Part shown: in pieces, positions 2,584-24,380 of the stretch
Layout of the letters: each line of letters opens with the position of its first letter
Position numbering within the stretch: position 1 is the first letter of the stretch
Notes under the pieces: generated by a model
Databases searched by the model: none
Seen by the model: the letters and a program-made list of their open reading frames with translations, nothing else
What the model was told of the DNA's origin: nothing
Translations under genes and position numbers: made by a program
Source of the DNA: a virus
Virus record (IMG/VR): IMGVR_UViG_3300009071_000064
Coordinates: 1-25,118 of that record
Strand: one strand, 5' to 3'
DNA: 25,118 nt

Positions 2584-3792
2584 ATGGCAAAAGCAAAAAA
2601 AGAAAAGGTAGAAGAGACTACCGATTCTGCTGCTGAAGTGAAAGCAACAGAAAATGATGGTAAATTAAAAGTAAAGAAAAAACCGTCAATGAAAAAAATG
2701 GCTGTAGACAATGAACCGTTAAAGGTTGACATGTCTAAAGCTCCTGCAGAAGAAAAGCAGGAAGAAGAGCAACCTAAAGAAGAAGTCAATGATAAGATTG
2801 TTGAGGAAGTTAAAGAGGAAAAGGTTGAAACCAAAGAAGAAGAAACTGAAAAACCAGTTTTGGAAGAGATTACAGAAGAAAAAACTGATGAGGTTGTTGA
2901 AGATAAAGCTGAGACAATTGAAGAAGCAGTTGAAGAAGCTGTAGAAGAAGCTAAAGAAACTGGCAAAGAACTACCGGATAATATTCAAAAAGTTGTAGAC
3001 TTCATGGATGAGACTGGTGGTGATCTTAACGATTACGTAAAATTAAATCAAGATTACAATAAACTTGATGATAAAGCTTTATTAAGAGAGTATTATAATC
3101 AAACTAAATCACACTTAACAAGTGATGAAGTTGATTTTCTTATAGAAGATAGATTTGACTACGATGAAGAAGTAGATGAAGTAGTTGATGTTAAGAGAAA
3201 GAAATTAGCGTTTAAAGAGCAAGTTGCCGACGCTAAAAGCCACTTAGACGGGCTAAAGTCTAAATACTATGCGGAAATCAAAGCAGGCTCAAAGTTAAAT
3301 CCTGAGCAAAAAAAGGCAATTGATTTTTTTAATAGATACAATGAGAAGAACGAGGTAGAAGAAAAAGCATTAGAACAACAAAGATCAACTTTTACACAAA
3401 AAACAAATAATGTTTTTAACGACAAGTTCAAAGGTTTTGAATATAATGTCGGAGATAAAAAGTTTAGATTTAATGTTAAAGATGTAAACAGAGTTAAAGA
3501 ACAACAAAGTGATATTAATAACTTTGTATCTAATTTTTTAGATAAGAAAAGTAAATTAATTAATAACGCTGAAGGGTATCATAAATCTATGTTTACAGCT
3601 ATGAACGCTGATGCTGTTGCGAATCATTTTTACGAACAAGGAAAAGCAGACGGTGTTAAAGAAAGTATTGCACGATCTAAAAACATTGATATGTCTCCTA
3701 GAGCTACTAATGAAACAGATGTTAGTGGTGTAAAAGTAAGAGCGATAAGTGGCGACTCTACTGATAGACTTCGATTTAAAATTAGAAAATAA
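2584..3792 (+). CDS. Probable capsid scaffolding protein
   Basis: Scaffolding proteins direct capsid subunits into procapsids around the portal and leave before or during packaging. This 402-residue protein lies directly between portal and capsid genes, the usual place. Residues 1-45 are Lys-rich. Residues about 50-125 are extremely Glu-rich (runs such as EEKQEEEQPKEE), probably disordered. Residues about 149-260 form a charged helical region containing YYNQTKSHLTSDEVDFLIED. The C-terminus is basic (RLRFKIRK), as expected for a capsid-binding tail. No protease motif is seen. The start is ATG at 2584 after the AT-only leader ATATTATATT. The call rests on position, length, charge distribution and predicted helicity. 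A head-maturation accessory protein is the main alternative. Confidence 0.78.
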   Translation: MAKAKKEKVEETTDSAAEVKATENDGKLKVKKKPSMKKMAVDNEPLKVDMSKAPAEEKQEEEQPKEEVNDKIVEEVKEEKVETKEEETEKPVLEEITEEKTDEVVEDKAETIEEAVEEAVEEAKETGKELPDNIQKVVDFMDETGGDLNDYVKLNQDYNKLDDKALLREYYNQTKSHLTSDEVDFLIEDRFDYDEEVDEVVDVKRKKLAFKEQVADAKSHLDGLKSKYYAEIKAGSKLNPEQKKAIDFFNRYNEKNEVEEKALEQQRSTFTQKTNNVFNDKFKGFEYNVGDKKFRFNVKDVNRVKEQQSDINNFVSNFLDKKSKLINNAEGYHKSMFTAMNADAVANHFYEQGKADGVKESIARSKNIDMSPRATNETDVSGVKVRAISGDSTDRLRFKIRK

Positions 3793-3819
3793 CTTTAAAC
3801 ATTTAAAATTTAAAATAAA
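3793..3819 (+). promoter_or_regulatory. Shine-Dalgarno-less leader of the capsid gene
   Basis: The 27 bases between scaffold stop and capsid ATG contain only A, T and two C residues, and end in TTTAAAATAAA directly before ATG. There is no purine-rich GGAG or AGGA stretch. A occupies -1, -2, -3, -5 and -6. In Bacteroidota, A/T-rich unstructured leaders with A near -3 and -6 are known to drive strong initiation. This is the leader of what should be the most highly expressed gene of the phage. Confidence 0.55.
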
Positions 3820-5265
3820 ATGGCAGCAATTAACCCAACGGCTGGGTCGAATTTAAACTCAACTCCAGCCCCAAAACAACAAACCCTTTCTAGTAACTAT
3901 ATTGACTTTACGTCATCTAGTACTGAAGGTTGGGCTCAACAATATCTACCTGATATTATAGAAAAAGAAGCTGAGGTGTTCGGTAATAGAACTATCTCTG
4001 GTTTCCTTTCTCAAGTAGGTGCTGAAGAGGCTATGACAGCTGACAGAGTAATCTGGTCAGAACAAGGTAGACTACACATCTCTGTAACAGGAGTATCTGT
4101 AGCAAACGCTGGTACTATTACTGGCGCAACTAATCACGGTGTTAGAGTTGGTCAAACTATCGTATTATCTGATGGTGAGTCTAGCCCTACAATAACAAAA
4201 TGTTATGTTTCTGCAGCTGATTCAGCAGCAGGTACTTTAACAGCTCTTCCTTATGCAGTAGCAACTGTTGGTGCAGTAAGTGGATTTGTTACAACTGATG
4301 ATGACGCTGCAGCTAGATGTTCTTTCTTCGTTTATGGATCTGAATTCAAAAAAGGAGATAGCGGAATGTCTAACGCAGTAACACCTCAACATAAATCTCA
4401 TGTGAACAAACCAATTATTATCAAAGATAAATTTGAAGTAAGTGGTTCAGACGCATCAGCTATTGGTTGGGTAGAAATTTCAGGTGAAGAAGGTCAAAAT
4501 GGTTACCTATGGTATTTAAAAGCTGAAGGTGATACAAGAGCTAGATTCTCTGATTACTTAGAAATGGCATGTATAGAAGGTGAACTTGGTGTACCTGGTT
4601 CTTCTGCAGTAGATTCAGAATTATCTGGAGCTGGTGCGGATTTTGGTACTGAAGGTTTATTCGCAGCAATCAATGACAGAGGTCACGTTACTTCTGGTAT
4701 CGTTGGTACTAGTGCAGCAGATGACTTAGGATCTTTTGATAATATCCTTAAGAAATTTGATGGACAAGGTGCGATTGAAGAAAACATGTTGTACTGCAAC
4801 AGAAGTGTATCTTTAGCAATAGATGATATGCTTGCAGCACAAAATTCTTATGGTTCAGGTGGTACTTCTTACGGAGTATTCAGTAACGATGAGGATATGG
4901 CATTAAATTTAGGTTTCTCTGGTTTCAGAAGAGGTTCTTATGACTTCTACAAATCTGACTGGAAATATCTAAACGATGCTTCATTAAGAGGTCAAGTAGA
5001 TGGCGATTACAACGACGTTAGAGCGGTTGTAATTCCAGCTGGTGTATCAACTGTTTATGATGAGTCTTTAGGTAGAAATATGAAAAGACCTTTCTTACAC
5101 GTAAGATACAGAGCTTCACAATCTGATGATAGAAGAATGAAAACTTGGATCACTGGTTCAGTTGGTGGAAACATCACTTCTGATCTTGATGCAATGGAGG
5201 TACATTACCTATCAGAAAGATGTTTAGTTGTTCAAGGAGCTAATAACTTCATGATTCTTAACTAA
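3820..5265 (+). CDS. Major capsid protein
   Basis: Main shell protein, expected HK97 fold, several hundred copies per virion. It has 481 residues. After a flexible N-terminus rich in Ser, Pro and Asn, the sequence WAQQYLPDIIEKEAEVFGNR (residues about 38-57) looks like the N-terminal arm and first helix typical of this kind of capsid protein. Residues about 90-145 (VRVGQTIVLSDG, KCYVSAADSAAGTLTALPY) may be a small beta insertion. The call rests on place after scaffold, size, composition, and two expression signs: an A/T leader before it and a strong terminator after it. Phe codons are 13 TTC to 6 TTT, whereas the visible portal gene has 1 TTC in 17, which suggests codon selection for heavy translation. 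I am sure of the role, but the fold is inferred rather than demonstrated. Confidence 0.92.
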   Translation: MAAINPTAGSNLNSTPAPKQQTLSSNYIDFTSSSTEGWAQQYLPDIIEKEAEVFGNRTISGFLSQVGAEEAMTADRVIWSEQGRLHISVTGVSVANAGTITGATNHGVRVGQTIVLSDGESSPTITKCYVSAADSAAGTLTALPYAVATVGAVSGFVTTDDDAAARCSFFVYGSEFKKGDSGMSNAVTPQHKSHVNKPIIIKDKFEVSGSDASAIGWVEISGEEGQNGYLWYLKAEGDTRARFSDYLEMACIEGELGVPGSSAVDSELSGAGADFGTEGLFAAINDRGHVTSGIVGTSAADDLGSFDNILKKFDGQGAIEENMLYCNRSVSLAIDDMLAAQNSYGSGGTSYGVFSNDEDMALNLGFSGFRRGSYDFYKSDWKYLNDASLRGQVDGDYNDVRAVVIPAGVSTVYDESLGRNMKRPFLHVRYRASQSDDRRMKTWITGSVGGNITSDLDAMEVHYLSERCLVVQGANNFMILN

Positions 5266-6221: not shown

Positions 6222-6944
6222 ATGGCAGTAAGTATAGACACTGTATATCAAAAAGTATTAGCAATTGCCAATAAAGAGCAAAGAGGTTATGTAACACCTC
6301 AAGAGTTTAATTTACTAGCAAATCAAGCACAATTAGAAATATTTGAACAGTATTTCTATGACATAAACCAATTCAGTAGAATACCTGGTAACAGCACTAT
6401 TTATTCAGATTCACTTGACGTGTTGCAAGAAAAAGTTGATCATTTTGAAAAGTTTAGAGCAGACGTGTCAATGGCATCGGGTGGTGTTGGTACATTGCCA
6501 GAATATTATAAAATGGGTACGTTATATTATTTAAAAGACGGTCAATACTTAGCAATAGAAAATGTAGAACAAAACAAATTACACTTACATATAAACTCAC
6601 CGTTAACAGCCCCAACGACATCGCGACCAATATATGTGAGAAACTCTGGTACAACAGAAGCTCAGAGAGAAAGAAGAATACAAGTTTACCCAACTACAAT
6701 AACATCAGCGGTAACATGTAACTATATTGCAAAGCCTACAAAAGTACAATGGGCATACACAATTGTAAATAGTGAAGCTTTATATAACTCAACAAATGCT
6801 GTTGATTTTGAACTTCACGCTTCAGAAGAAACTAAATTAGTAATTAAAATACTAGAATTAGCTGGTATAACTATGAAAGATACAGGTTTAATTCAAGTAG
6901 CTGATAAAGAAGAAATAGAAACAATACAACAAGAAAAATCATAA
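6222..6944 (+). CDS. Head-tail adaptor / ring protein (structural, short)
   Basis: A 240-residue structural protein in the position of the portal-adaptor of podoviruses. Residues 1-55 are helical and contain TPQEFNLLANQAQLEIFEQY and FYDINQF, a stretch I associate with a family of marine phage structural proteins. The middle is beta-rich (LPEYYKMGTLYYLKDGQYLA; RRIQVYPTTITSAVTCNYIA). The C-terminal helix (SEETKLVIKILELAGITMK) resembles the helix seen in head-tail connector folds. It is followed after four bases by another adaptor-like gene, so the two probably stack as rings between portal and nozzle. The exact correspondence to the T7 gp11 or crAss ring proteins is inferred from order and general shape, not from detected homology. 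Confidence 0.75.
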   Translation: MAVSIDTVYQKVLAIANKEQRGYVTPQEFNLLANQAQLEIFEQYFYDINQFSRIPGNSTIYSDSLDVLQEKVDHFEKFRADVSMASGGVGTLPEYYKMGTLYYLKDGQYLAIENVEQNKLHLHINSPLTAPTTSRPIYVRNSGTTEAQRERRIQVYPTTITSAVTCNYIAKPTKVQWAYTIVNSEALYNSTNAVDFELHASEETKLVIKILELAGITMKDTGLIQVADKEEIETIQQEKS

Positions 6945-8112: not shown

Positions 8113-11100
8113 ATGTCAGAGTTAAAACATCATTTTAGAGCCGGTAAAATGAATAAGGATCTAGACGAAAGGCTAGTTCCTAACGGTGAATATAGAAATG
8201 CAGAAAATATAGAAATATCTACATCAGAAGGGTCTGACGTAGGCGCTGTACAAAATGTTTTAGGTAATACTAAATTAGTAGGTAAGACATATGACGCTAA
8301 CACAAAGGTTTTATCTGCAACTGGGTGGGATGATGTGTCAAACGCTATTGATGATTTAACTAATCCCACGTGTATAGGATCAATAATAGATTATCAAAAT
8401 AATAAAATATATTGGTTTATAGCTGCAACAGGAGTTAGTTGTATAGCAGAATATACAGAATCAACAGGTGTTATAGCACCAATATTAGTTGATAAAAATA
8501 GTATACTAAATTTTAGTTCAAGTTATCCTATTACAGGTGTTAATATTATAGACGGCTTGTTATTATGGACAGACAACCAACATGAACCTAAAAAAATAAA
8601 AATATCTTCATTTAAATCTGGTTCTACAGATTTTAATACTCACACAACTTTTAATAGTGTTGCTTTTACAGAAAACGATATTACTGTAGCAAAGTTAGGA
8701 CCAATAAATGCGCCAACGCTAACAATGGCTAATTCAAAAAGAACTGGCAATGGAACAGGTACTACAAAAGTATACTCGCGTTTTAAATTTACAGACGGTA
8801 GTGGTGATCCTTTAGCAGCTCAAACTTCAGTTACTTTAGCATTAACTCCATCTGCTAATTTCAAGAAAGATGATATTATAACGCTGAGTCACACGGATGA
8901 AGAAAATGAAGAGTACACAATTAAAGTATTAATTACTAAATTAAACAACTTCACAACAGCTTTAACTAACAATATAACAGGTAAAATACAGACAATACCT
9001 TCAGATACACCTAATGAAACAATACAATGGTCAGTTTTATTAGATGAAGAAGAGCCAATGTTTGAAAAGAAATTTGTAAGATTTGCATTACGATGGAAGT
9101 ATAAAGATGGAGAGTACTCAACGTTTTCACCATTTTCAGTTCCTGCTTTTTTACCTACAAACTTTGAGTATAAATCCGCAGATGGTCACAATATAGGTAT
9201 GTTAAATACACTAAGATCTTTAACAGTTAACTTACAAGATACACAACCCGCTGATGTAGATGAGGTTGACATATTATATAAAGAATCAAGTAATAATTTA
9301 GTTTATGTTGTTGACACGCTTAAAAATAACGAAACATCATACGAGATACAATCTGAGATAATTGGAAGTGTTGTAGATTCTAAACAAATATTAAGACCTT
9401 GGGATAATGTACCTAAAAAAGCTTTAGCACAAGAGATTACAGCAAACAGGTTAATATATGCTAACTACTATCAGCAGTATGATATTTTAAAACAAAATAT
9501 ACCTAATGTAGAAACTGCTATAACTTCAAATGATATAACAACTATTAAAACCCCTCAAAAATCTTTAAAATCACAAAGAACATATCAAGTTGGTGCTGTT
9601 TACAAAGACGCTTATGGTAGAGAAACACCTGTATTTTCAAATAAAAAAGCAGCAAAACAAATTGATAAGTCTTTTGCTAATAAGGTTAACTCGCTACAAT
9701 GTAAGCTAGTTAATGACGCACCTGACTTTGCAACACATTATAAATTTTTTGTTAAAGAAACTTCTAATGAATATTATAATATAGCATTAGATAGATTTTA
9801 TTTAGCTGATGATGGTAATGTTTGGTTAAGTTTTCCCTCATCTGAAAGAAATAAAATACAAGACGATAGCTATTTAATACTTAAAAAACAACATGATAAA
9901 GATATTGCTATATCTGTTGATGCTAGATATAAAGTTTTAGATATTCAAAATGAAGCGCCTAGAAATATAAAAATGGTATCACAGTCTGTTGCTAACTCAA
10001 AATTAGAAATATTAGACGGTGCTATTAACGCGCCACAAGTTGGAGCTGTTGCATTTCAATTAAAAGGACCTAAGTATTCAGAAAATAATAAATTTGCTGA
10101 TGGGTTAAATGGTGATGGTGTAATAACATTTACAACATCTGGTGGAACTACTGGTCAGTATAAAATATCAAATGGCGGTTTAAACGGTGAAGCAGATGGT
10201 AGCGGTGATAATAAACACATTTATGATTTTGTTTTAAAAGATCCTATAAAAGATGTTGACTCAACAATACTTGGCAGTAGTTATGTTGAAGATAATGACA
10301 CTATAACAATAAAGTTATTTGAAGAAAGAGAAGTTGAAAAAGCAGAGTTTTATGGTAGATTTTTTGTTAAAATAAATAGGAACTCAGTTTTTGATACAAA
10401 TATAATACAATCATTTCCAGCTCTAGATACTGAATATAATATATTATATAGTAGAGATGTCGATCAAGATGTAACTAATGACTTTTCAAGAACTATATCA
10501 GATGATGGTGTAACAAAGAAAAAAGCAAGATCTGATTTAGCTTGGACTGATACTAAAGCAAAAGATGATTTTACGCAAGTAGCAAATATACACCCGGTGT
10601 TAGGAAAAAATACATTTACAGTTTATTGGGCAGGTGTTAATTATGGTGAAGACTGGCAAGATAATGTTACAAGTGATAAGGGTAAGAAACATAATGAACT
10701 AGATACAGTTAATCAGTTTTTAGAAAATTTATCTAACTCTGGCACGTATATACAGTTTGCTAATGCTAATGGTGATACTGGTGCTATATACGAAATAACA
10801 GATGCTACAATTGACTATCAGTTTAGAAGAAAAAGCGGTAGAAATAGAAAGTTTATAGCTGGAAAACGTAGAGCGTATAACTTGACAATAAAAAACACAG
10901 ATACTGGTGAAGGTTATGATGATGCGTTTACATATAGTGGTTCTGGCTCAACAGGTAGAATTACAAAAATAAATATAATGCAAAAAGATTTACCTTTAGG
11001 TAATGATATGATCTCATCTTCAAATCCAGCAATATTTGAGACAGAGCCTAAAGAATCAATAGACTTAGATTTATATTATGAAATAAGTGATGCATACCCA

Positions 11101-14100
11101 ATTATAAAACCTGGCATGACAGTTGAACATTTTAAAGATGAAGATGGAGTGTTGATTTCAATACCTTTGATTCCAGCTAGTACAACAATCACCTCAATTA
11201 CAGATGTTAATAATTTTACTTTATCTGCAAATACTACAGGAATAATAGCAAGTGGATCAACATTAAAGATAACAGACTCAAAAGGTATTTATAGTTTTAA
11301 TGTTATAACAAATGGTAGTATAGCAAGTTCAACAGCTGCTGTTGTGATAGCAGATGGTGATTTTCATGGTCACACACAATCATTAAATTGGTTTAACTGT
11401 TATAGTTTTGGTAATGGTGTTGAATCAGATAGATTAAGAGATGATTTTAATGCTGTTAAAATAGACAAGGGAGTTAAAGTATCAGCGCCACTCGCAGAGC
11501 AATACAAAGAAGAACATAAACAAAATGGTTTAATATTTTCAGGTATATTTAATTCAACAAGCGGAATAAATAGATTAAATCAATTTATACAAGCAGAACC
11601 TATAACAAAAGATATTAACCCATATTATGGTAGCATACAAAAGTTACATGCTAGATTTGGTGATTTAATTACATTATGTGAAGACAAAATTTTAACAATG
11701 TATGCTAATAAAGATGCTTTATATAATGCTGATGGGTCTGCAAACTTAACAGCTACAAATAGAGTATTAGGCAGTGTTAAGCCTTTTCCTGGTGAATACG
11801 GTATATCTAAAGATCCTACGTCATTTGTATCGCATGTAAATAATGCTTATTTTACTGATAAAGCTAGAGGAGCTGTTCTCGCGCTCTCTGGCACACAGTT
11901 AATCAATATATCAGATCAAGGTATGAGAGACTGGTTTAAAGACAACCTACCAGCATCTACGTCATTAATAGGTACATATAACCAAAACAAAGGTCTATAC
12001 AATTTAACGGTTAAAGGTACAACTGATTATACTTTAAGTTATGACGGTAAAGTGAAAGGCTGGCCAAGTTTTAAATCATTTATTCCAGAGTCAGGGTGTT
12101 CGTTAAATAATAAGTATTATACTTTTTATAATGGTGAAATATGGGTACATACAAACACAACAAGAAATAACTTTTATGGTACTCAATACGATTCATCTGT
12201 TAAGGTTTTAATTAACGATGTTTCAGATACTATAAAAGGGTTTAAGACTATTTCTTATGAAGGTACTGATGCAAAAGAATATACATATCAAGGTGTAATA
12301 ACTATTGATGGTTCAGGTAACGACTTAACAGATCAAGGTTTAACTGATATAAAAATACCTGGTTACACAATGGGTGAGTTAATAGAAGGTGGATATTCCG
12401 AGGCACAAATAGCACAGTTAAGTGAAACAATATCAAGAGGATGGCATGTTGATTCTATAACAACAAACGAAGATACTGGTTCAATAAGAGAGTTTAAAAG
12501 AAAAGAAGGCAAGTATTTTAATTACATAAAAGGAGATACAACTGTTTTATCAAACGTTGATTCAGAAGAGTTTTCAGTGCAAGGTATTGGTCAACTAGCA
12601 TCTATAGCTGGAAATACATCAATAAGTGGATATGCTGCTGCAATAACTGTTGCTGCTGAAACTGGATTAACTATAGCTAGCGTTACAGATTCAGCTGCTA
12701 GCTCACACTGGGTATTAGACGGTAATGTTATAAGAAGATATAATAATGCAAGTGGTTTTAATGTAGATGATTTCAATGATTTAAAAATAACATTTACAGC
12801 TGATAATGGTTATGCATTACCAAGCAGTCAAACTATTTCATCACAAAGTCCAACTGCTTTTATAGCTATTGGATCAGGTACTTCAACTTGGAATAGTTCA
12901 ACTGGTGTGTTAAGACTTCAATTTGCAAGTTTAGCTGCTTCTGCAGATACCAATTTAGCAATTAGTTTAGATTTAGCAAATGGTGGTACACTTAATACAT
13001 ATTCAATTGCTGGTACTTATGATGTTGTGGCAGAAAATACAGATTTAAAATCTTCTGTTGAAACAGCATACACTAACACAGGAGAGTATGCAAGCAGTGA
13101 AGTTGTATTAACTAGAACATTTAATGCTAATACTGGACACTTTTTTAATACACGTGCAACGTGTGAAATAATAAAACAAGATAATGATGATGAAAGTCTT
13201 TATACTATAACACAAACAACACCAACTGTAGGTAATGGTGGTAAAGATTCAGATGGAAATATAATTAAAGAGGTATTTTCAATTACGTATAAGTATGGCG
13301 CAGCTAATGTAACTGGAGATAAGCTTTTATTTACAGCAAAAGCAGAAAAAATATTTGTAGCACCTACTGTTGAAATAACTGGTTTAGATGTTAATACTAA
13401 GTCAATAAGCAGAAGAGGTGAAAACAGAACACTTACAGTTGTAGGTGTAGATACAGCAACATTTAAAGTTAGTAGAATAGTAAGTGATGGCACGAAGCAT
13501 TATTGGGATGGTGATTCATGGGAGTTAATTCCTACACAATTAACAATACCATCAACTGGTCAATATGCAATAGCTGAGGTTTATGCATCATCAAGCACAT
13601 CAAAAACGTTTAAATATGAAATTGAAGATGCAACTATAGCAACAAACTTTACAGGATCAAACCCAGTAACATTAAATCAATATGCTGATGTTACGTTGAC
13701 ATTTAATGCGGTTACTTCTAATGCTAAAATACACCCAGGAACTGGATCATCAGCAACTGCAGATACAGTAGCAAGTTCTTATTATAGTTTAGGTGAACCA
13801 TCTGCTGAAGAATCATCTGGAGCTATAGAACTTGAATTCTATATATACAGAGCAGCAGCAGGGGATGATGTAGATGATCATATAATACCTACATCAGCTG
13901 GTGTTACTGAAGATGATTTTACAAACAATGCAACAGAATTAACAACAGCTTCTGCTGTAGGAAATTCAACAAACGTTACATTGAGTAGTGGTAGTAATAG
14001 TTTAGTTGCCGGTATGGTTGTAACAAGTACAAGTATATCGCCAGTTGGAACAGAGACTGAGGTAACTATTGCTTCTATAAGTAATACTGCTTTAGTTTTA

Positions 14101-14973
14101 TCATCCGCACAAACAATACCATCTGGTGAAACATTAACTTTTTCACCGCCTAACAGCTATGAGTTTAGCATAGCCAATATTACTGGTGCAGCAGCAGCGG
14201 ATACAACAGCTACAGGATCAGGTAGTGCTGGTACAGCAATGACAATAAGTGCTGTAAATAGTAATATTAAAGTGGGTATGCACATATCAGGTACTAATGC
14301 ACACGCAAACGCTAGTGTAACAGCTATAAGCGCAGACGGTTTAACTATAACAATGTCAGACGCTGCTAGTGGAACTATGTCAGGTACATATAGTTTCTTA
14401 GGTCAAAATGCTGACAGTGAAATTTATGTATATAAAATAACAGCTGATATTGAAATAGAAAAATATGGATCAGCAGATTTAACATCACAGTTGTTACTTG
14501 ATAAATTTTTAACACATACTGATGATAGCAGTAGTGGAACTGGTGGTTCTACTGCTACGGCAATGACTATTTCAGCTGGAACTGATGGCTCGGTATTAGC
14601 AAACTTAACAACACATACGCCAACTATTAACAGGCATATGATATTCCAAAATACAGCAGACGGAACTACAAAAACTGGAACTATTAGTGTAACTGGTAAC
14701 TTTGATGGTAATTCATTATCACAAATTGAAATTGTAGCTCCAGCGGCAACTAACACACAATTAAGCGCTGTAACATTTACAAACAAGAGATTTGCTAGTG
14801 GTTATACCGGTAGTACAACAACAGGTACAGCAAGTGGTAGCTCAACAAAAATAATGATTGATTACTCAGTTAACTTAGATAATGACAGTGGTGGTGCAGC
14901 AACAGCGGCTAATATTACAACTGGGTATAACGTGGCAGTACACGTTGGTGGATCTAACTTTAATACACCTTAA
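8113..14973 (+). CDS. Giant tail nozzle / stabilization-type protein with adhesin-like C-terminal half
   Basis: A 2286-residue tail protein. The N-terminus (GKMNKDLDERLVPNGEYRNA, residues 11-30) is the signature I associate with stabilization or muzzle proteins of crAss-like and related podovirus-like phages, in the slot of P22 gp10 and T7 gp12. Residues to about 1400 show many repeated beta segments (YQVGAVYKDAYGRETPVFSN; NWFNCYSFGNGVESDRLRDD), probably a beta-propeller-type nozzle through which DNA leaves. From about 1400 to the end composition changes to Ser/Thr/Gly/Ala-rich beta repeats resembling Ig-like or adhesin domains. A small module around GM-x-V recurs at residues 999-1054, 1947-2010 and 2040-2095. 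No coiled-coil fibre shaft or peptidase motif is seen. Since no separate tail-fibre gene is present here, the C-terminal half may supply receptor binding; that is inference. Confidence 0.82.
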   Translation: MSELKHHFRAGKMNKDLDERLVPNGEYRNAENIEISTSEGSDVGAVQNVLGNTKLVGKTYDANTKVLSATGWDDVSNAIDDLTNPTCIGSIIDYQNNKIYWFIAATGVSCIAEYTESTGVIAPILVDKNSILNFSSSYPITGVNIIDGLLLWTDNQHEPKKIKISSFKSGSTDFNTHTTFNSVAFTENDITVAKLGPINAPTLTMANSKRTGNGTGTTKVYSRFKFTDGSGDPLAAQTSVTLALTPSANFKKDDIITLSHTDEENEEYTIKVLITKLNNFTTALTNNITGKIQTIPSDTPNETIQWSVLLDEEEPMFEKKFVRFALRWKYKDGEYSTFSPFSVPAFLPTNFEYKSADGHNIGMLNTLRSLTVNLQDTQPADVDEVDILYKESSNNLVYVVDTLKNNETSYEIQSEIIGSVVDSKQILRPWDNVPKKALAQEITANRLIYANYYQQYDILKQNIPNVETAITSNDITTIKTPQKSLKSQRTYQVGAVYKDAYGRETPVFSNKKAAKQIDKSFANKVNSLQCKLVNDAPDFATHYKFFVKETSNEYYNIALDRFYLADDGNVWLSFPSSERNKIQDDSYLILKKQHDKDIAISVDARYKVLDIQNEAPRNIKMVSQSVANSKLEILDGAINAPQVGAVAFQLKGPKYSENNKFADGLNGDGVITFTTSGGTTGQYKISNGGLNGEADGSGDNKHIYDFVLKDPIKDVDSTILGSSYVEDNDTITIKLFEEREVEKAEFYGRFFVKINRNSVFDTNIIQSFPALDTEYNILYSRDVDQDVTNDFSRTISDDGVTKKKARSDLAWTDTKAKDDFTQVANIHPVLGKNTFTVYWAGVNYGEDWQDNVTSDKGKKHNELDTVNQFLENLSNSGTYIQFANANGDTGAIYEITDATIDYQFRRKSGRNRKFIAGKRRAYNLTIKNTDTGEGYDDAFTYSGSGSTGRITKINIMQKDLPLGNDMISSSNPAIFETEPKESIDLDLYYEISDAYPIIKPGMTVEHFKDEDGVLISIPLIPASTTITSITDVNNFTLSANTTGIIASGSTLKITDSKGIYSFNVITNGSIASSTAAVVIADGDFHGHTQSLNWFNCYSFGNGVESDRLRDDFNAVKIDKGVKVSAPLAEQYKEEHKQNGLIFSGIFNSTSGINRLNQFIQAEPITKDINPYYGSIQKLHARFGDLITLCEDKILTMYANKDALYNADGSANLTATNRVLGSVKPFPGEYGISKDPTSFVSHVNNAYFTDKARGAVLALSGTQLINISDQGMRDWFKDNLPASTSLIGTYNQNKGLYNLTVKGTTDYTLSYDGKVKGWPSFKSFIPESGCSLNNKYYTFYNGEIWVHTNTTRNNFYGTQYDSSVKVLINDVSDTIKGFKTISYEGTDAKEYTYQGVITIDGSGNDLTDQGLTDIKIPGYTMGELIEGGYSEAQIAQLSETISRGWHVDSITTNEDTGSIREFKRKEGKYFNYIKGDTTVLSNVDSEEFSVQGIGQLASIAGNTSISGYAAAITVAAETGLTIASVTDSAASSHWVLDGNVIRRYNNASGFNVDDFNDLKITFTADNGYALPSSQTISSQSPTAFIAIGSGTSTWNSSTGVLRLQFASLAASADTNLAISLDLANGGTLNTYSIAGTYDVVAENTDLKSSVETAYTNTGEYASSEVVLTRTFNANTGHFFNTRATCEIIKQDNDDESLYTITQTTPTVGNGGKDSDGNIIKEVFSITYKYGAANVTGDKLLFTAKAEKIFVAPTVEITGLDVNTKSISRRGENRTLTVVGVDTATFKVSRIVSDGTKHYWDGDSWELIPTQLTIPSTGQYAIAEVYASSSTSKTFKYEIEDATIATNFTGSNPVTLNQYADVTLTFNAVTSNAKIHPGTGSSATADTVASSYYSLGEPSAEESSGAIELEFYIYRAAAGDDVDDHIIPTSAGVTEDDFTNNATELTTASAVGNSTNVTLSSGSNSLVAGMVVTSTSISPVGTETEVTIASISNTALVLSSAQTIPSGETLTFSPPNSYEFSIANITGAAAADTTATGSGSAGTAMTISAVNSNIKVGMHISGTNAHANASVTAISADGLTITMSDAASGTMSGTYSFLGQNADSEIYVYKITADIEIEKYGSADLTSQLLLDKFLTHTDDSSSGTGGSTATAMTISAGTDGSVLANLTTHTPTINRHMIFQNTADGTTKTGTISVTGNFDGNSLSQIEIVAPAATNTQLSAVTFTNKRFASGYTGSTTTGTASGSSTKIMIDYSVNLDNDSGGAATAANITTGYNVAVHVGGSNFNTP
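13951..14397 (+). repeat. Tandem diverged beta modules in the tail protein
   Basis: Two protein-level copies of one module. The first (13951-14142) reads VTLSSGSNSLVAGMVV, TEVTIASISNTALVLS and ETLTF. The second (14230-14397) reads MTISAVNSNIKVGMHI, ASVTAISADGLTITMS and GTYSF. Shared skeleton: (V/I)xxGMx(V/I) - Tx(V/I)xxIS - L(V/T)(L/I)(S/M)S - x(L/Y)(T/S)F. A third, longer version lies earlier at 11107-11274 (KPGMTV, TTITSITDVNNFTLS). Such modules are common in marine phage structural proteins. The DNA copies have diverged, so duplication is old or the module arrived separately. Confidence 0.6.
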
Positions 14974-14984
14974 AATTAAAATAT

Positions 14985-15320
14985 ATGGCAGTAATAACAA
15001 TGACATTTGCAAGAGACATAAATTCATCTGTACAAGTTGGAGATATGATATATAAAGCAGCACTAGGAAGTTATGGTGAAACAGGTAGTTTAGTAGAAGT
15101 TGGAACTGTTACAGCTGTTACAAGTACAACAGTAAGTTGTAACATAGCAACAGGAGATGTAAGGCCAACAGCTAATGACTTCATACTGTTTAGTAAAGAT
15201 AATAAAGCAAATTTATCTACTTTAAAAGGGTATTACGCAGAGGTAGAATTAAAGAATAATTCGCTAACTTCAGCAGAAGTATACGCTGTAGGATCTGAAA
15301 TATTTGAAAGTAGTAAATAA
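14985..15320 (+). CDS. Small virion-associated protein of unknown function
   Basis: A 111-residue protein starting MAVITMTFARDINSSVQVGD. The first two thirds look all-beta (MIYKAALGSYGETGSLVEVG; VTAVTSTTVSCNIATGDVRP). The last third (STLKGYYAEVELKNNSLTSA, then EVYAVGSEIFESSK) resembles the C-terminal end I recall from small structural proteins of other marine phages, including T4-like cyanophages; I could not check this. It starts 12 bases after the nozzle gene, so a tail-tip, cap or chaperone-like role for the nozzle or its adhesin half is plausible. No catalytic motif, signal peptide or membrane segment is seen. Confidence 0.7.
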   Translation: MAVITMTFARDINSSVQVGDMIYKAALGSYGETGSLVEVGTVTAVTSTTVSCNIATGDVRPTANDFILFSKDNKANLSTLKGYYAEVELKNNSLTSAEVYAVGSEIFESSK

Positions 15321-17123: not shown

Positions 17124-20100
17124 ATGTCTAAATTAGAGCTAGAAAAAGTTGTTAACAATATGCTCACAGATGGTAAGTCAGAAGACGACGTTGCTATTGT
17201 TATAAACGAGTATAAGAAAAAAAATCCTACAATACTAGATGAGGTGACTGTGGAAGACACTAAACTGCCTAATGTTCCGCTGGTACTAGCACCTCAAACA
17301 AGTCCAAATCAATTACAAAACATCCCACAAATACAAACTGAAATAGAAAAAAATATAGAACCATTAAAAGATAAAGATGGTAATCCAATAAAAGCATCTT
17401 ATGAACAAATGAGAGATATAAAAGGCATATCTCAGTTAGATGAAATAAAAAGTTTAACGCAATTTGTTACTACACCTAGTTTACTTAAAATGGAAATGGA
17501 AGGTAAAACAGACGTTTTAGATTTAGATGAAAGTTTAAAAATAGCAGCAGTAACACCTATTAGCTGGATTGCTTCTGCTAGAAAGGCTGTAAATTTAAAA
17601 GCCGGCGTTTTAAATAAAACAATAGAAAAATACGGTTGGAACCCGACAAATTGGGACCAACTAACTAAAGAAGAAAAAATAGCTGTAGAAAAAGAGGTTG
17701 ATAAGCAGGAAATAATTAACTTTGCATCTGGCAATTATGGTATGCCAGGGCTTGGTTTGTCTTTTGTGCCTCCTAAAATAGCAGTTGAAGAATATAAAAA
17801 AGACGTTCAAGATGATTTAACTCAGTATGATGGTGACATACTTACATCATTTCAAAAGGGAAATTTTTTTGATGCAGGAGCACGTATATTAAATGGCTCA
17901 ATACAAACAGCACCAACATTAGCAGCTGCTGCAACTGGTTATGGTGGTATCGCTGCTATGACAGCTGGTATGTACGGTGAAAATTTTACAGAAAACTACA
18001 AGAACAACCCAGAGCAAACATTAGGTATGAATATATTAAACTCTGGTTTAAAAGCTGGAATAGAAGGTGTTGGTGCTATAGCTACTAACAAAATATTATT
18101 TAATGGAAAAATTATTAATAATCTTATTGGGTCAAAAAGCACGGCTGGTAAAAAAGCTGTAAGCGATGTGCTTAACGGTGGATTTAACAGGGTAAAAAGT
18201 ACGTTAGGAGGTATGGTTCTTGAGGGAGGTGAAGAGTGGAGTACAGAATTAGCTGCTGACTTTGCTAACGAAGTGACTAACATCAACAAATTTGACACTG
18301 ATCAAATGCTTGAAAATATGGCAAACTATGATCTACCTACAAAAATGCGTGAAAAAGTAGATGCTGCTATACTTGGAGCAGCTATGGGTGGTGGTACTAA
18401 AACTATACAAAATCTAGGTAAAACAGAATCAGCTATAAAAGAGCATGCTGTTAACTTATTTATGTCAGACGCTGATGCTGATATCATATCTAAAAAAGGA
18501 ACAGAAATAAACGATTTACAACAAAAGTTAGGTAAAGCTGAAACAGATATAGGTAAAGAAATCATTGAAAGACAGATAAATAATAAAGCACAAGAAATAG
18601 CACAAAAAAGAAAGTCACAGTATAATAACTTAAAAAACCTTGAGCCAAAGGAGTTGATTGAATTAGGAACAGAAATTGATAATAAAAACAACTTACTAAA
18701 AAATTTACAAAAAGAAACAGACCCGAGTGTAAAACAAGAAATTGAAAAGGATTTAAAAGAATCAAAAAAGAAAGCAAAAAATTTATTTAATAATGCTACA
18801 AAAAGAAGAGTACAAGAAAATGTGGCAACAGCTAGAAAATCAATAGGCGCTAAAAATGTTAAAGTACATACTAACCCTGATACTTTTCAGAACATTCATG
18901 ATGAATCGACGGGTGCTGATCCAAAAGAATCTATTGACGTTAGTGGTGTTAATGCATTTTATGTTAACGGTACAATGCACATTAATAAAACAGCTGCAAT
19001 AGAAACCGACGCAACTTCAGTTGGTACACATGAAAATCTTCATGATATTACAAAGGCAAAAATAAATGACACAAACGGTAGATTAACACCTGATGGTAGA
19101 AAATTAATTGACGATTTTAGATCACAATTATCTGCCAAAGAAATAAAGGTTGTAGATCAGAGAATTAATGATAATTATAAGTTTGACGAAAATGGCAAAG
19201 AAAAACCATACGATGAGTATGCAGAGGAATATTTAAACCAATTTCATGATGCTGTAGTTACAGGAGATATTAAATATAACGCTACCGATGCTCAATGGTG
19301 GAAAGACTTAGCTAATAGTTTTACTGGTATATTTAAAAAGGAAGGTTTTGAAAATGTTAATTTTGAAACAGGTCAAGATGCATACAATTTCTTACAGTCA
19401 TATAACAAAGCAGCTAAAGAAGGTAAAACAGAAGACGTTAAAAAGTTATCTACAGAATTAAAAAAACAAGGTAGAGATCTTGATACTCAAATAGCACAAG
19501 AAAAAAATCCACAAAAATTAGCTGAATTAAAAAGACAAAGAAAACAAAAACAACAAGAGGTAAGAGAAGCTGTTGCTAACGAAAGTCAAATAAAAAAATC
19601 TGACACAAAAGAAAATGAAATAAATCAGTTAGGGCGTAATGTTACTAAAGCTGAGTGGGATGGTGGTAAAGCAGATCAAGCTATTGGTAATATATATGAA
19701 AAATTACAAGGTTTAATTAAAAGCAAAATACCTGTAAATAAACCACCTGGTTTTTCTGAAACTGATTTTGTAGCGTCTACTATAGGAGAATTAATACCAC
19801 ACATACGTAATTTTAATCCTGAAGTTAATGATAGTTTATCTGGTTGGATTAATTCACAGTTATCAAATAAAATTGGTAATGTGTTTAAAAAAGGAACAGC
19901 AGGGACTAAAGCAGAGTTTGAGCAAGATATATCTGAAGCTAGAGGAGTTGCTGTAGAACAAGAAGTAGAGCAAGAAGTTGATAAAAAACAAAAGGTTACT
20001 AAAAAAGTGTTATCAAAAGAGTTTAATTTTGATAAAAAAGACAAAGCGACAACAGAAGTCATGAAGTCAAAAGACTTTAAAATGCCTGATAGCTACAAGT

Positions 20101-23100
20101 CAGTTAAAGATATGACACCTGAATTAACAGCTGAATTATTTGGTGTTGATCCAAAACAGTATGTTGATCCTAAAAAATCATTAAAAAAAGAAGATATTAT
20201 TGCAGCAAGAACATTTATAAGAAAAAACCCAGAGTTATTATACAATATGTTACCTGAAGCATTAAATGAGCAAGGTAAATCAACTGGCGTAAGAAAATTA
20301 TTACTTGATGCTTTTTATGAAGGTACAGGTGTAAGAAAAGAAGCTGCATTAGGTAGAAGTAAACAGGGATCAGAAGTAAGAACTAAAAAACCATTTAATC
20401 AAAAAGAATTTTTATCAGCACTTGGCATTATTCCAGGGGAAGTTATGAAAGTTAAAAACCAAACTAAGGTATCTGGTATGATATCAGCTTTAATGAACGA
20501 GACTGGTAAAGCCATGACTAATCAAGCTATTAAAAATAATCTTGATGCTGACTTACAAAAAGAGGTAATACAAAAAATAGATGATGGTAAAAATAGAATA
20601 CTATACAGCGACACGCGTGACAAAAGTGGCGTAAAAGAAACGCTAGACAAACAAGCTAAACCTGAACCTGTGAATAAAAGCGGCACTAAAAAAATGGTTG
20701 ATTTTTTAACAGGACCTCTTGCTAAAGTTTTACCTTATGATTTAATTATAAGATCTGGTAATCTTGCGGCTGCCGGAAACGACGCAGCTAGAGCTATAGA
20801 TAGGGGTTTTAGGTTTATTGGTAATTTCGCACGTACAAAAAATGATGCAGATAGAAAACCCACTGATACATATAAAAAAGAAGACACGTTTAAATATCTC
20901 AATTCTGGTATAATAGCTGATTTAGCTGTAGTTAACGCTTTAGCATCAAATACTAAATATGAAGGTAATACTGATACTAATAACATGAGAGAAGCTATTA
21001 GAGGTAAAAACAAAGGCAACATAGATAAAAATATAGCTAACTTAGACTCGCATAAAAAAGGTGTAAAAGAAATATTAACAGAACTAAAAGATTTATATAA
21101 GAAATATCCAAATCAGGTAAGAGAACTATTGTATAATGCAAATGCTAATGCTAGTTTTAATAGAAATTTTGCTTCTTTATTAGACATGGAATTTAATCCT
21201 AAAAATTTAAAAACAGAGGAAGAACACGTTTTTCAAGCTGGTAGAGCAGCAATAAGATCTTTAGAGGCTATGGGTAAATCAGATAAAGTATTTAATAATT
21301 ACTTAGACTGGCTTGCAGATAATTACTATCAAGTAGCTTTAACTAAAGAAACAGCTGACATAGTTGATAAAAGCAAAAAGGCAAAAGAAGCCGGTATTGA
21401 TTTTAAAAGTCAAGAGCATCCACTGTTGCAAGAAGGGTTAGATCAAGCTATGAAGGATGGTGATTTTAGTAAAGTTCCATCTTCAGATATTAGATACTTT
21501 AATGAATATCATCACATAAACCCAAACACAACTGGTTACGCTAAAAAATATAATTTAGAAGTAGATAAAAAACACCACAATAATGCCGACGTCGTAGAGG
21601 CACAAGCTGATCTAATATTTAGACAAATAAAAGGTGAAATAACACCTAAACAAGCTAAGGCTGAAATGGACAGCTATTTAAAATTAGTGACACCAAAAAA
21701 ATCAATTAAGTATTCAACATCTAAAAAACAAAACGAAAGTAATAAAGAATACTTACAAAGAATGAAAAAGTTAGATAAAGCCCTTGAAGTTGCTAGAGAT
21801 CCAAACGCTCCAGAAAAAGGCATATCAATATTTGATTTTGATCAAACATTAGCCAACACAAAAGAAAAGGTTATAGTCACTACACCTGATGGTAAAACAA
21901 AAAAGATAGGAGCGCAAGAGTTTGCTGAAAAAGCTGCTGAACTAGAAGAGCAAGGCGCTGAGTTTGACTTTAAGGAATTTGAAAAAGTTAAAGGTGCAAC
22001 AAAAGGACCGTTTTTTGATTTAGCACAAAAAATAAAGGGAAAGTTTGGTAATAAAGACATATTTATATTAACAGCTAGACCGCAATCGTCTGACATAGCG
22101 ATACAATCGTTTTTAAAAGCTGTTGGGCTAGATATTAAATTAGAAAATATTACAGGTTTAGAAGATGGTACACCTCAAGCTAAAGCTGATTTTGTTATAG
22201 ATAAAGTTGCGGATGGTTATAATAACTTTTTCTTTGGCGATGATGCTTATAAAAATGTTAAAGCTGTGCAGGAAGTTTTAGATCAAGTTGATGTAAAAAG
22301 AGATGTTCAACAAGCTAAAGAACAATTAAATAAAGATATAGACACTGTATTTGATGAGATAATACAGGAAAATACTGGACTAAATAAAAACGCAACAGTT
22401 AGTGTTGCTAAGGCAAAACAAATTGGAGCAACAAGAGGTAGCTGGTTAAAAGATTTCTTTTTAGCACCATCATCTGAAGATTTTACTGGACTAATGTATA
22501 CATTAATAGGTAAAGGTAAAAAAGGTGAAAAGCAATTTGAGTTTATTAAAAATGCTTTAATAAGACCATTTGCTAGAGGTATTAGAGATTTAAATGCAGC
22601 TAAACAAGTTATATCTAATGAGTTTGCTAATTTAAAGAAAATTTATCCAGATGTTACAAAGTCATTACGAAAGCCATCACCAGTAAAAGGTTATAATAAT
22701 TCACATGCTATAAGGGTTTATCTGTGGAATAAAAACGGTATTCCAATACCTGGTTTATCAAAAACAGATGAAAAAGCACTAGTCAAGCATGTAAACAACA
22801 ATTCGGACATGAAAGTGTTTGCTGATCAAGCTGGTCAAATAACAAAGCTTAAAGAAGGATATACAACTCCAAGTAACTCATGGATGATAGGTAATATATC
22901 AACAGACATGCAGGATGTAAGTAATAAAGTTAAAAGATCTGAGTATTTAAAAGAGTATTTAGACAACTATGAAAAAATGTTTACACCTGAAAGGTTAAAT
23001 AAACTTGAACTTATATACGGTAGTAAATTTGTTGAAGCATTAAATGATATGAAATACAGGATGGAGTATGGAACAAACAGATCTCAAGGTCAAGATAGAA

Positions 23101-24380
23101 TAACAGCTGCTTGGCAAAACTGGGTTAATAACTCTGTTGGCGCAATAATGTTCTTTAATATGAGATCAGCGGTGCTACAGACATTGTCATCTGTGAACTT
23201 TGTAAACTGGAACGATAATAATCCATTTAAAGCTGCTAAAGCTTTAGCTAATCAAAAGCAATATTGGAAAGATTTTAGTTATATATTTAATCACCCAACG
23301 CTAAAACAAAGAAGAGCTGGGTTAGATATAGATGTTAACGCTTCTGAAATTGCCGCAAGAGTAGCTGATAGTAAAAATAAAATATCAGCTGGTTTAAATC
23401 ATTTATTGCAATTAGGTTTCACACCAACAAGAATAGCTGATAGTTTTGCTATTGCATCAGGTGGTGCTACGTTTTATAGAAATAGAATTGAAACTTATGT
23501 GAAACAAGGTTTAAGTAAAAAAAGAGCAGAAGAAAAAGCATTTTTAGATTTCCAAGAAATATCAGAAGCAACACAGCAGTCAGCTAGACCTGATATGATT
23601 TCACAGCAACAAGCTGGTCCACTTGGTAGATTAGTATTGGCTTTCCAAGTAACACCAATGCAGTACACAAGATTAATGAAAAGATCAGTACAGGATTTAG
23701 TTGCTGGTAGAGGTGATATGAAAACACATGTATCAAAGATTATATATTATGGCGCTGTACAAAATATGATATTTAATGCACTACAAAGTGCTGTATTTGC
23801 ATTAGCATTTGGTGATGATGAAGAAGATGATGAAGATAAAATGTCAGAAAAAGAAAAAAGAAAAGCAGTAAGAGTAGCAAACAACATGGCTGATAGTTTA
23901 TTGAGAGGTTTAGGTGTTCAAGGTGCTGCTGTAGCTACAGTTAAGAATATGATTATTAAATTTTTAGAGCAAGAAAAACGTGGATACAGAGCTGATCACG
24001 CTTACACAATGATTGAAGGATTAAATATATCTCCACCAATAGGTAGTAAAGCAAGAAAAGTATATAGCGCAACACAAACATATAAATTTAATAGAGATGC
24101 TATAAAAGAAATGGGATTTGATATTGACAACCCAGCGTATGAAGCTGTAGGTAACATTGTATCAGGTACTACTAATGTTCCTCTTGATAGAGTTATAGCA
24201 AACCTTAATAACGTTAGAGCGGCTATGGATAAAAATAATGCGGCGTGGCAAAGAATATCTGTACTTTTAGGTTGGAACGCTTGGGATGTGGGTATACCAG
24301 ATAGAGAGGTAGAAAAAGTAAAACAAGAAATAAAAAAAAGAAAAGCAGAGGAAAGAAAGCGTAAAAAAAGTAAAAAGTAA
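17124..24380 (+). CDS. Giant polyvalent ejection protein: zincin-like, sigma-r2-like, HAD phosphatase, LPD38-like
   Basis: A 2418-residue virion protein in the slot of T7 gp16, probably injected with DNA. Regions in order: hydrophobic helices near residues 259-285 and 309-327 (APTLAAAATGYGGIAAMTAG), then EGGEEWSTELAADFANEV; a coiled coil at about 447-573; a zincin-like segment with HENLH at 636-640 and candidate third ligand in YAEEYLNQFHD (Glu701/702); a second coiled coil at about 774-822; residues 865-925 resembling sigma-70 region 2; a HAD domain at about 1565-1735 with Asp1571, Asp1573 and Thr1575, Thr1650, Lys1687 or Lys1694, and Asp1706-Asp1707; an LPD38-like region at about 2000-2230 (MRSAVLQTLSSVNFVNW; GPLGRLVLAFQVTPMQYTRL); and a very basic C-terminus (KKRKAEERKRKKSKK). 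No single-subunit RNA polymerase motif (DxDGD) was found. Domain positions are by eye. The HAD call is strong, the zincin call moderate, and the sigma-like call speculative. Confidence 0.85.
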   Translation: MSKLELEKVVNNMLTDGKSEDDVAIVINEYKKKNPTILDEVTVEDTKLPNVPLVLAPQTSPNQLQNIPQIQTEIEKNIEPLKDKDGNPIKASYEQMRDIKGISQLDEIKSLTQFVTTPSLLKMEMEGKTDVLDLDESLKIAAVTPISWIASARKAVNLKAGVLNKTIEKYGWNPTNWDQLTKEEKIAVEKEVDKQEIINFASGNYGMPGLGLSFVPPKIAVEEYKKDVQDDLTQYDGDILTSFQKGNFFDAGARILNGSIQTAPTLAAAATGYGGIAAMTAGMYGENFTENYKNNPEQTLGMNILNSGLKAGIEGVGAIATNKILFNGKIINNLIGSKSTAGKKAVSDVLNGGFNRVKSTLGGMVLEGGEEWSTELAADFANEVTNINKFDTDQMLENMANYDLPTKMREKVDAAILGAAMGGGTKTIQNLGKTESAIKEHAVNLFMSDADADIISKKGTEINDLQQKLGKAETDIGKEIIERQINNKAQEIAQKRKSQYNNLKNLEPKELIELGTEIDNKNNLLKNLQKETDPSVKQEIEKDLKESKKKAKNLFNNATKRRVQENVATARKSIGAKNVKVHTNPDTFQNIHDESTGADPKESIDVSGVNAFYVNGTMHINKTAAIETDATSVGTHENLHDITKAKINDTNGRLTPDGRKLIDDFRSQLSAKEIKVVDQRINDNYKFDENGKEKPYDEYAEEYLNQFHDAVVTGDIKYNATDAQWWKDLANSFTGIFKKEGFENVNFETGQDAYNFLQSYNKAAKEGKTEDVKKLSTELKKQGRDLDTQIAQEKNPQKLAELKRQRKQKQQEVREAVANESQIKKSDTKENEINQLGRNVTKAEWDGGKADQAIGNIYEKLQGLIKSKIPVNKPPGFSETDFVASTIGELIPHIRNFNPEVNDSLSGWINSQLSNKIGNVFKKGTAGTKAEFEQDISEARGVAVEQEVEQEVDKKQKVTKKVLSKEFNFDKKDKATTEVMKSKDFKMPDSYKSVKDMTPELTAELFGVDPKQYVDPKKSLKKEDIIAARTFIRKNPELLYNMLPEALNEQGKSTGVRKLLLDAFYEGTGVRKEAALGRSKQGSEVRTKKPFNQKEFLSALGIIPGEVMKVKNQTKVSGMISALMNETGKAMTNQAIKNNLDADLQKEVIQKIDDGKNRILYSDTRDKSGVKETLDKQAKPEPVNKSGTKKMVDFLTGPLAKVLPYDLIIRSGNLAAAGNDAARAIDRGFRFIGNFARTKNDADRKPTDTYKKEDTFKYLNSGIIADLAVVNALASNTKYEGNTDTNNMREAIRGKNKGNIDKNIANLDSHKKGVKEILTELKDLYKKYPNQVRELLYNANANASFNRNFASLLDMEFNPKNLKTEEEHVFQAGRAAIRSLEAMGKSDKVFNNYLDWLADNYYQVALTKETADIVDKSKKAKEAGIDFKSQEHPLLQEGLDQAMKDGDFSKVPSSDIRYFNEYHHINPNTTGYAKKYNLEVDKKHHNNADVVEAQADLIFRQIKGEITPKQAKAEMDSYLKLVTPKKSIKYSTSKKQNESNKEYLQRMKKLDKALEVARDPNAPEKGISIFDFDQTLANTKEKVIVTTPDGKTKKIGAQEFAEKAAELEEQGAEFDFKEFEKVKGATKGPFFDLAQKIKGKFGNKDIFILTARPQSSDIAIQSFLKAVGLDIKLENITGLEDGTPQAKADFVIDKVADGYNNFFFGDDAYKNVKAVQEVLDQVDVKRDVQQAKEQLNKDIDTVFDEIIQENTGLNKNATVSVAKAKQIGATRGSWLKDFFLAPSSEDFTGLMYTLIGKGKKGEKQFEFIKNALIRPFARGIRDLNAAKQVISNEFANLKKIYPDVTKSLRKPSPVKGYNNSHAIRVYLWNKNGIPIPGLSKTDEKALVKHVNNNSDMKVFADQAGQITKLKEGYTTPSNSWMIGNISTDMQDVSNKVKRSEYLKEYLDNYEKMFTPERLNKLELIYGSKFVEALNDMKYRMEYGTNRSQGQDRITAAWQNWVNNSVGAIMFFNMRSAVLQTLSSVNFVNWNDNNPFKAAKALANQKQYWKDFSYIFNHPTLKQRRAGLDIDVNASEIAARVADSKNKISAGLNHLLQLGFTPTRIADSFAIASGGATFYRNRIETYVKQGLSKKRAEEKAFLDFQEISEATQQSARPDMISQQQAGPLGRLVLAFQVTPMQYTRLMKRSVQDLVAGRGDMKTHVSKIIYYGAVQNMIFNALQSAVFALAFGDDEEDDEDKMSEKEKRKAVRVANNMADSLLRGLGVQGAAVATVKNMIIKFLEQEKRGYRADHAYTMIEGLNISPPIGSKARKVYSATQTYKFNRDAIKEMGFDIDNPAYEAVGNIVSGTTNVPLDRVIANLNNVRAAMDKNNAAWQRISVLLGWNAWDVGIPDREVEKVKQEIKKRKAEERKRKKSKK

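Follow-up and report, generated by a model that had tools for sequence, protein, structure and literature searches.

Gene order of the window and its muzzle gene

The DNA analyzed here, referred to as the window, belongs to a marine phage with kinship to crAss-like phages and is a viral record of 25,118 bases whose left end lies inside a portal gene (5'-open, 716 aa here; 802 aa in the near-identical relative G001). Rightward from the portal follow capsid and tail genes, a muzzle gene, a gene encoding a 2418-aa protein and a holin-like ORF. This order of portal, MCP, tail genes, muzzle and cargo-type genes is a crAss-like arrangement; within the window, only the portal was named by family, and the other gene names were assigned by position and homology to genes of Cellulophaga phage phi38:1. 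All six relatives found among bacterial assemblies sit in Bacteroidota MAGs, which suggests a Bacteroidota host for the window phage. The following features are central to this study:

8113–14973, + strand: muzzle gene (tail gate of the crAss-like or T7-nozzle type) including the fused C-terminal extension, 2286 aa in one frame
8113–12612, + strand: conserved muzzle body, aa 1–1500, last strand ..FSVQGIGQLASIAG
11113–11382, + strand: most variable block of the body, aa 1001–1090, from comparison with relatives
12613–14970, + strand: inserted extension, aa 1501–2286, rich in Ser, Thr, Gly and Ala and predicted to fold into consecutive Ig/FN3-like beta domains, from composition and a structure model
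14985–15320, + strand: 111-aa ORF, displaced C-terminal domain of the muzzle as a separate chain, from HMM comparison and phrog_18548

Judged by homology, the N-terminal part of the ORF at 8113–14973 is a crAss-like muzzle. It matches phrog_14478 in PHROGs (E = 1.7e-118), contains Pfam crAss_MUZ_C at aa 1350–1474 (34.5 bits, cut-off 27) and was recovered in an hhalign profile comparison with the crAss001 muzzle gp44 (95.5%, E = 1.4e-8, 258 columns), in which gp44 residues 1055–1331 can be aligned with window muzzle aa ~1165 to 1473. The preliminary description had proposed a nozzle protein with a long C-terminal extension, and this single ORF bears it out. A tblastn search with the muzzle matched 87 phage records, all below 60% identity, from Cellulophaga, Flavobacterium, Tenacibaculum and Maribacter phages and one unclassified phage; PDB sequence searches with the whole protein and with profile A3 returned no solved relative at E 1. 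Bayfield 2023 (PMC10172136) describes the crassvirus muzzle as highly conserved, likens its ring-joining and propeller domains to those of T7, assigns the tip to the crass domain and the gate to the propeller, and attributes variation in length to insertions in the crass and IG2 regions. Like the window gene, crAss001 gp44 (PDB 7qok/7qol) carries crAss_MUZ_C and is encoded behind a tail gene and ahead of cargo-type genes.

The extension had initially been placed at base 12300 with a length of ~890 residues. Its presence was upheld, but conserved sequence continues to ~aa 1500 (base 12612), about 100 residues further, leaving an extension of ~786 aa from approximately residue 1501. Ser, Thr, Gly and Ala together account for 30% of aa 1–1396, 46% of aa 1397–2286 and 47% of aa 1475–2286. 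This agrees with the earlier characterization of the C-terminal part as beta sequence rich in these residues, and a structure model combined with structure searches predicts an all-beta string of Ig/FN3-like domains. The model (pLDDT 62.5, pTM 0.33) is mostly usable for model residues 32 to ~550, that is, to ~aa 2025, and poor beyond, with low confidence after model residue 553. The repeats first proposed for this region hold as a string of Ig-like folds but not as sequence repeats, as a BLAST self-comparison of the muzzle ORF found none. The closest PDB match of the model was 6xi3, the extender region of a large adhesion protein. The strongest VIA structure rows were complement/alpha-2-macroglobulin domains (Z up to 8.9, covering one domain), which we read as a common Ig/FN3 arrangement rather than as kinship. 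A viral structure library gave low TM-scores, mostly to uncharacterized or tail-type phage proteins. Searches of aa 1475–2286 for tail-fibre families or an S74 chaperone tip yielded zero Pfam and zero PHROG families at E 0.05.

The 111-aa ORF behind the muzzle gene

The small ORFs found behind the muzzle genes of the window and its relatives were combined into an HMM (11 copies). It matched the C terminus of the phi38:1 muzzle gp097 (6e-8), the end of gp121 from Cellulophaga phage phi13:2 and the ends of a 250-aa ORF in G020, a 252-aa ORF in G021 and a 244-aa ORF in G022. Phage phi38:1 (Pervagoviridae) is among the best tblastn matches and shares the gene order of the window. Unlike the window protein, its gp097 (1324 aa) has no extension and keeps the C-terminal domain in one chain, the MUZ_C part passing uninterrupted into a final domain of ~100 residues. 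The neighboring phi38:1 gp098 was considered as a counterpart of the small ORF and rejected, as the small-ORF HMM gave no match to it. In addition, phrog_18548, a family of unassigned function, covers both halves: its positions 4–87 correspond to window muzzle aa 1307–1387 and positions 145–239 to the 111-aa ORF. Because the HMM finds the end of gp097 and phrog_18548 spans both halves, the ORF at 14985–15320 is, by these sequence comparisons, the displaced C-terminal end of the muzzle, and the extension is an insertion placed ahead of it. By contrast, crAss001 gp44 is a single chain of 1371 aa with 40 residues beyond the aligned part. The insertion in the window falls in the C-terminal domain, a site that the portions of PMC10172136 drawn on here do not name among the crass and IG2 insertions.

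The junction is sharp: the body stops at ..FSVQGIGQLASIAG and the small protein opens with ..ITMTF..VQVGD.. In a model of the unbroken L023 ORF, the break falls between strands 133–143 and 146–149, at the turn of a predicted beta-hairpin, and both strands belong to a small barrel that forms the confident part of that model. This C-terminal domain model has a mean pLDDT of 53, with only residues ~136–205 confident, and its underlying alignment misplaces the first 13 residues of the small ORFs. Compared with the crAss001 muzzle structure 7qok_A, it aligned over 104 residues up to the last residue, 1371 (Z 6.8, rmsd 2.9), although this VIA row ranked 38th, with a Z level with unrelated rows. The barrel resembles those of phage tail proteins (tail tube, GTA, Chi tail tip and LKA1 spike; Z 8.1–8.6). 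Scores nearly as high were obtained with ATPase barrels and unrelated enzymes (Z up to 7.9), which marks the barrel as a common fold. Foldseek found no match for the C-terminal domain model at E 0.001. The small-ORF HMM did not match gp44, and the alignment of profile A4 to gp44 was confined to the first half; the gp44 link of the last domain, therefore, rests on the 7qok_A row and on hhalign up to the domain border. The break-bearing domain appears to match the gp44 C terminus, a result that we treat as supporting rather than decisive because of the low overall confidence of the model.

The adjacency of the two genes and their different frames in the window raise the question of whether the small ORF and the fusion are assembly artifacts or whether both ORFs yield one protein by programmed frameshifting. 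Among the matches listed, however, the C-terminal domain forms its own ORF in 66 of 86 loci and lies inside the muzzle ORF in none (0/86). Furthermore, 14 of the 17 fused loci include both genes, and in these the stop-to-start distance is 6–13 bases. Because these gaps occur in all three frame relations, we interpret the genes as encoding two proteins and discarded a frameshift. The phage phi13:2, isolated on Cellulophaga baltica, likewise has a split muzzle. Taken together, an artifact or a frameshift is extremely improbable. In phi13:2, the muzzle is, as in the window, made from two genes, gp120 and gp121, but the cut lies ~200 residues earlier (window aa ~1305), and gp121 comprises the MUZ_C part together with the last domain.

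Fused, free-standing and absent extensions

To compare the extension across relatives, an HMM was built from 11 fused copies. It detected homologues as free-standing ORFs in G008 and G014 (752 aa, 1e-45), G015 (605 aa, 2e-13) and G016 (509 aa, 1e-6), all located between the muzzle gene and the small ORF. Its other matches among 608 ORFs of 24 contigs were only fused muzzles and the ends of the G008 and G014 muzzles.

A wider scan with a conserved muzzle piece listed at least 600 stretches in at least 579 relatives; 80 loci were retained among these matches and classified together with six from bacterial assemblies. Of the 86 loci listed, 17 have the extension homologue fused to the muzzle and 51 encode it as an ORF of its own. 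The separate homologue precedes the C-terminal domain in 38, follows it in nine and occurs where this domain was unseen in four; a further 12 loci gave no match and six are cut. Five of the 86 are contigs of the first set, and removing them leaves 13 fused, 37 separate before, nine after, four with the domain unseen, 12 without a match and six cut. Tails of at least 250 aa occur on 26 of the 66 muzzles with a C-terminal domain in its own ORF, not all of which match the extension HMM. In a three-gene tree (MCP, portal and another gene), which includes very long outgroup rows, the fused G025 is sister to the free-standing G008 and G014 with full support; the fused state requires at least two changes both there and on a tree of 63 loci. 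These comparisons point to an exchangeable Ig-bead module that is either fused or free-standing in one slot, although the nine loci with the homologue behind the C-terminal domain do not fit a single fixed position.

Other contents and cuts were also recorded at this region. One free-standing extension homologue carries Big_9/cadherin domains according to Pfam, and the short slot ORF of G020, which lies between muzzle pieces (L021:14551-15054, 168 aa), contains a spondin-like domain of thrombospondin type 1 (Pfam E = 4e-12). Eight loci (L123, L126, L131, L132, L134, L135, L136 and L145) have a different long muzzle tail, unmatched by the extension HMM, and a separate extension homologue behind the C-terminal domain. 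In L023 (G022), L021/L022, L014 and phi13:2 (L026), the muzzle is cut at a different loop near window aa ~1305, with three ORFs in the gap in L023 (15369–18337) and one short ORF in L021/L022. L018 (9968–14594) has two muzzle ORFs cut near window aa 1100 and a C-terminal end without the small-barrel insert. A cut near aa 1254 in the G023 muzzle may be a frame error and was left out of the counts. In the spring-water phage MW202828 (L063), a 183-aa ORF at 12665–13216, annotated as 'putative glycosidase', sits between two muzzle pieces; neither Pfam nor PHROGs gave a match to it at E 0.05.

Tail fibres, sequence variation and possible role of the extension

The window has 34 listed ORFs, counting all frames; a PHROGs scan of 14 of them detected no tail-fibre family. 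The initial statement that a fibre gene is missing is thus accurate for the 25-kb fragment but does not extend to the genomes of relatives, which carry fibre-type genes upstream of the terminase. In phi38:1, this position is held by the S74-chaperone spike gp085. An S74 domain was present in seven records among the 23 first relatives, including G004 and G012 with fused extensions. The S74 genes of these two (1708 and 1342 aa, both cut by contig ends) lie upstream of the terminase and match tail-fibre families; the S74 match in G015 belongs to a cargo-region ORF that is not an obvious fibre. G010, which is near-identical to the window (MCP 100%, DNA 96.6% over 8.8 kb, muzzle 99.6% over the first 231 aa, after which the G010 copy is cut), encodes upstream of the terminase the last 384 aa of a gene matching the G004 fibre (blastp identity of 63% over 92 aa; in a second search, 48% over 135 aa with E = 1.1e-27), a piece that has no S74 domain and matched no Pfam family. 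From these relatives, we infer that the fibre gene of the window phage would lie upstream of its portal.

Of 12 fused-extension records (11 new ones and G025), seven contain an S74 domain or a homologue of the G004 fibre. The remaining five showed neither; four are fragments of 22–30 kb, and the fifth is the 69.5-kb G025, where both the S74 search and the fibre search found no fibre. An 804-aa ORF of G025 is 43% identical to the G004 fibre over 121 aa (blastp) and weakly matches the 'tail tip protein Tal' family but no tail-fibre family. As for further candidates, a 722-aa ORF in G014 matches many tail-fibre families and a 533-aa ORF in G006 matches one, while a 1255-aa ORF in G006, a 1915-aa ORF in G014 and three of four candidate ORFs in G025 matched none. 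The two G006 fibre ORFs may be one gene, as a run of N lies inside it.

We then examined where the muzzle varies between close relatives. A strongly variable C-terminal part next to a conserved N-terminal part had been predicted, but the nearest pair shows a different pattern. Window and G001 are 95–100% identical per 100 residues and 97–98% across the extension up to aa 1826, where the G001 copy ends; the exception is aa 1001–1100 in the body, with 59% identity, a 14-aa gap and a dS of 1.1. The block at aa 1001–1090 is also largely missing in G012, G025 and G008. Hypervariability of the whole extension was, therefore, rejected for this mostly conserved pair, and a rate test including the entire body with aa 1001–1090 was not significant (p = 0.44).

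A second informative pair is G004 and G006, with 99.5% DNA identity over 25.8 kb and 99.4% identity in the muzzle including its extension. G004 bases 2905–5086, which make up the distal part of its fibre gene, lack a DNA counterpart in G006; at the protein level, short pieces match at ~60%, a run of N lies between them and the S74 tip is missing in G006. This pattern does not support the earlier suggestion that host recognition has moved onto the nozzle. Within the muzzle, the last 366 residues hold 13 of the 16 amino acid differences, and the distal third shows 15 nonsynonymous to four synonymous changes, compared to 3:20 elsewhere (Fisher p = 2.6e-5). For G012/G007, the distal third evolved faster than all of the remaining protein (p = 4e-5). 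It was not significantly faster for G012/G011 (p = 0.26) or, against the whole remainder, for G008/G014 (p = 0.29–0.35), where p reached 0.03 only without the fast body middle (aa 781–1100), itself faster than the other body parts (p = 0.0035). All these tests involve small counts and regions picked after data inspection, two pairs share G012 and recombination was ignored. What is seen of the variable C terminus expected earlier is an excess of substitutions in the distal third, present in two of the four pairs that could be tested, with most of the extension at body-level identity. The faster evolution could reflect relaxed constraint.

These data allow several roles of the extension to be weighed. 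One is that the fibres were lost and that the muzzle extension became the main receptor-binding organ, for which the adhesin-like composition and fold, the 15:4 ratio in the distal third of G004/G006 and the double negative search in G025 could be cited. We regard this as very unlikely, as the near-identical G010 and the fused-extension relatives G004 and G012 retain fibre-type genes upstream of the terminase, contrary to the initial view that fibres are absent, G004 and G006 differ in DNA in the distal fibre rather than in the muzzle, and over most of its length the extension is no less conserved than the body. Since relatives carry fibre genes elsewhere, and often the beads as their own gene, replacement of the fibres by the tail gate is improbable.

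Another role would be that of a passive spacer or exterior decoration taking no part in host choice. The extender-type best PDB match, the generic Ig/FN3 folds, a length ranging from ~600 to 900 aa among relatives and the two pairs without a significantly faster distal third are compatible with it, but the amino acid excess in the distal third of the other two pairs makes it rather unlikely.

A third possibility concerns the solved nozzles. In T7 gp12 and SU10 gp17, as presumed for the window protein, a beta-propeller nozzle places its C-terminal part in an adaptor-facing platform (PMC6702177, PMC9509320); the portions of these reports drawn on here describe neither an Ig-bead insertion in the platform nor a split chain. 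T7 fibres dock between nozzle propeller and C-terminal platform (PMC6702177), and the short fibres of SU10 hang on the nozzle (PMC9509320). With its insertion in the C-terminal domain, the extension could, hence, dock or brace the separate fibres on the side of the muzzle that faces the collar, without binding a ligand. The muzzles of phi38:1 and G023 lack an extension, yet both phages have S74 spike or fibre genes, which indicates that the extension is not needed for docking. Together with the fast distal third in two pairs, this renders a pure docking function unlikely.

We consider it somewhat more likely than not that this crAss-like muzzle bears an exchangeable Ig-bead side appendage, with its last domain as a separate chain, and that the appendage is auxiliary to separate fibres. 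In this short-tailed crAss-like phage, the bead module occupies the loop that joins the final two conserved strands of a domain presumed to lie on the collar side and to be of the ring-joining or platform type. The gene is cut behind the module, and the 111-aa protein would restore this beta domain through strand pairing between the two chains. Given the homology of the muzzle with the solved nozzles of T7, SU10 and crAss001, the beads would be expected proximally on the outside of the muzzle, beside the fibre collar and not at the tail tip, with six copies per virion. The resulting whisker would reach outward, and its distal third may make auxiliary contacts with the host surface besides those of the tail fibres.

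More tentatively, at a level of confidence just short of even, marine Bacteroidota phages may possess a multi-chain gate in which the muzzle is routinely cut at propeller or collar-side loops, with its last domain provided in trans and the cut serving as a slot for swappable modules, fused or free (Ig beads, cadherin- or thrombospondin-type domains and other genes). Swappable appendages would then hang on the pressure-bearing gate itself. We found no paper on a split muzzle or a bead extension in the open PubMed Central literature. If the proposed architecture is correct, annotating the muzzle as one long ORF misreads such genes, phrog_18548 gains a role as the C-terminal muzzle piece and the fused and free versions provide a natural test of a gate-borne appendage beside fibre-borne recognition.

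Observations were also made on other genes of the window. The 2418-aa protein (17124–24380) contains an HENLH stretch at aa 636 and a DFDQT stretch at aa 1571, which we take to be reminiscent of zinc-protease and HAD motifs, respectively; a Pfam scan of the protein returned nothing above the cut-off. At 6222–6944, the copies in L006 and L011 (G010) are 71% identical to the window, with neighboring genes at 98–100%, possibly the result of allele replacement, and G001 has an additional 171-aa ORF behind its counterpart of this gene.
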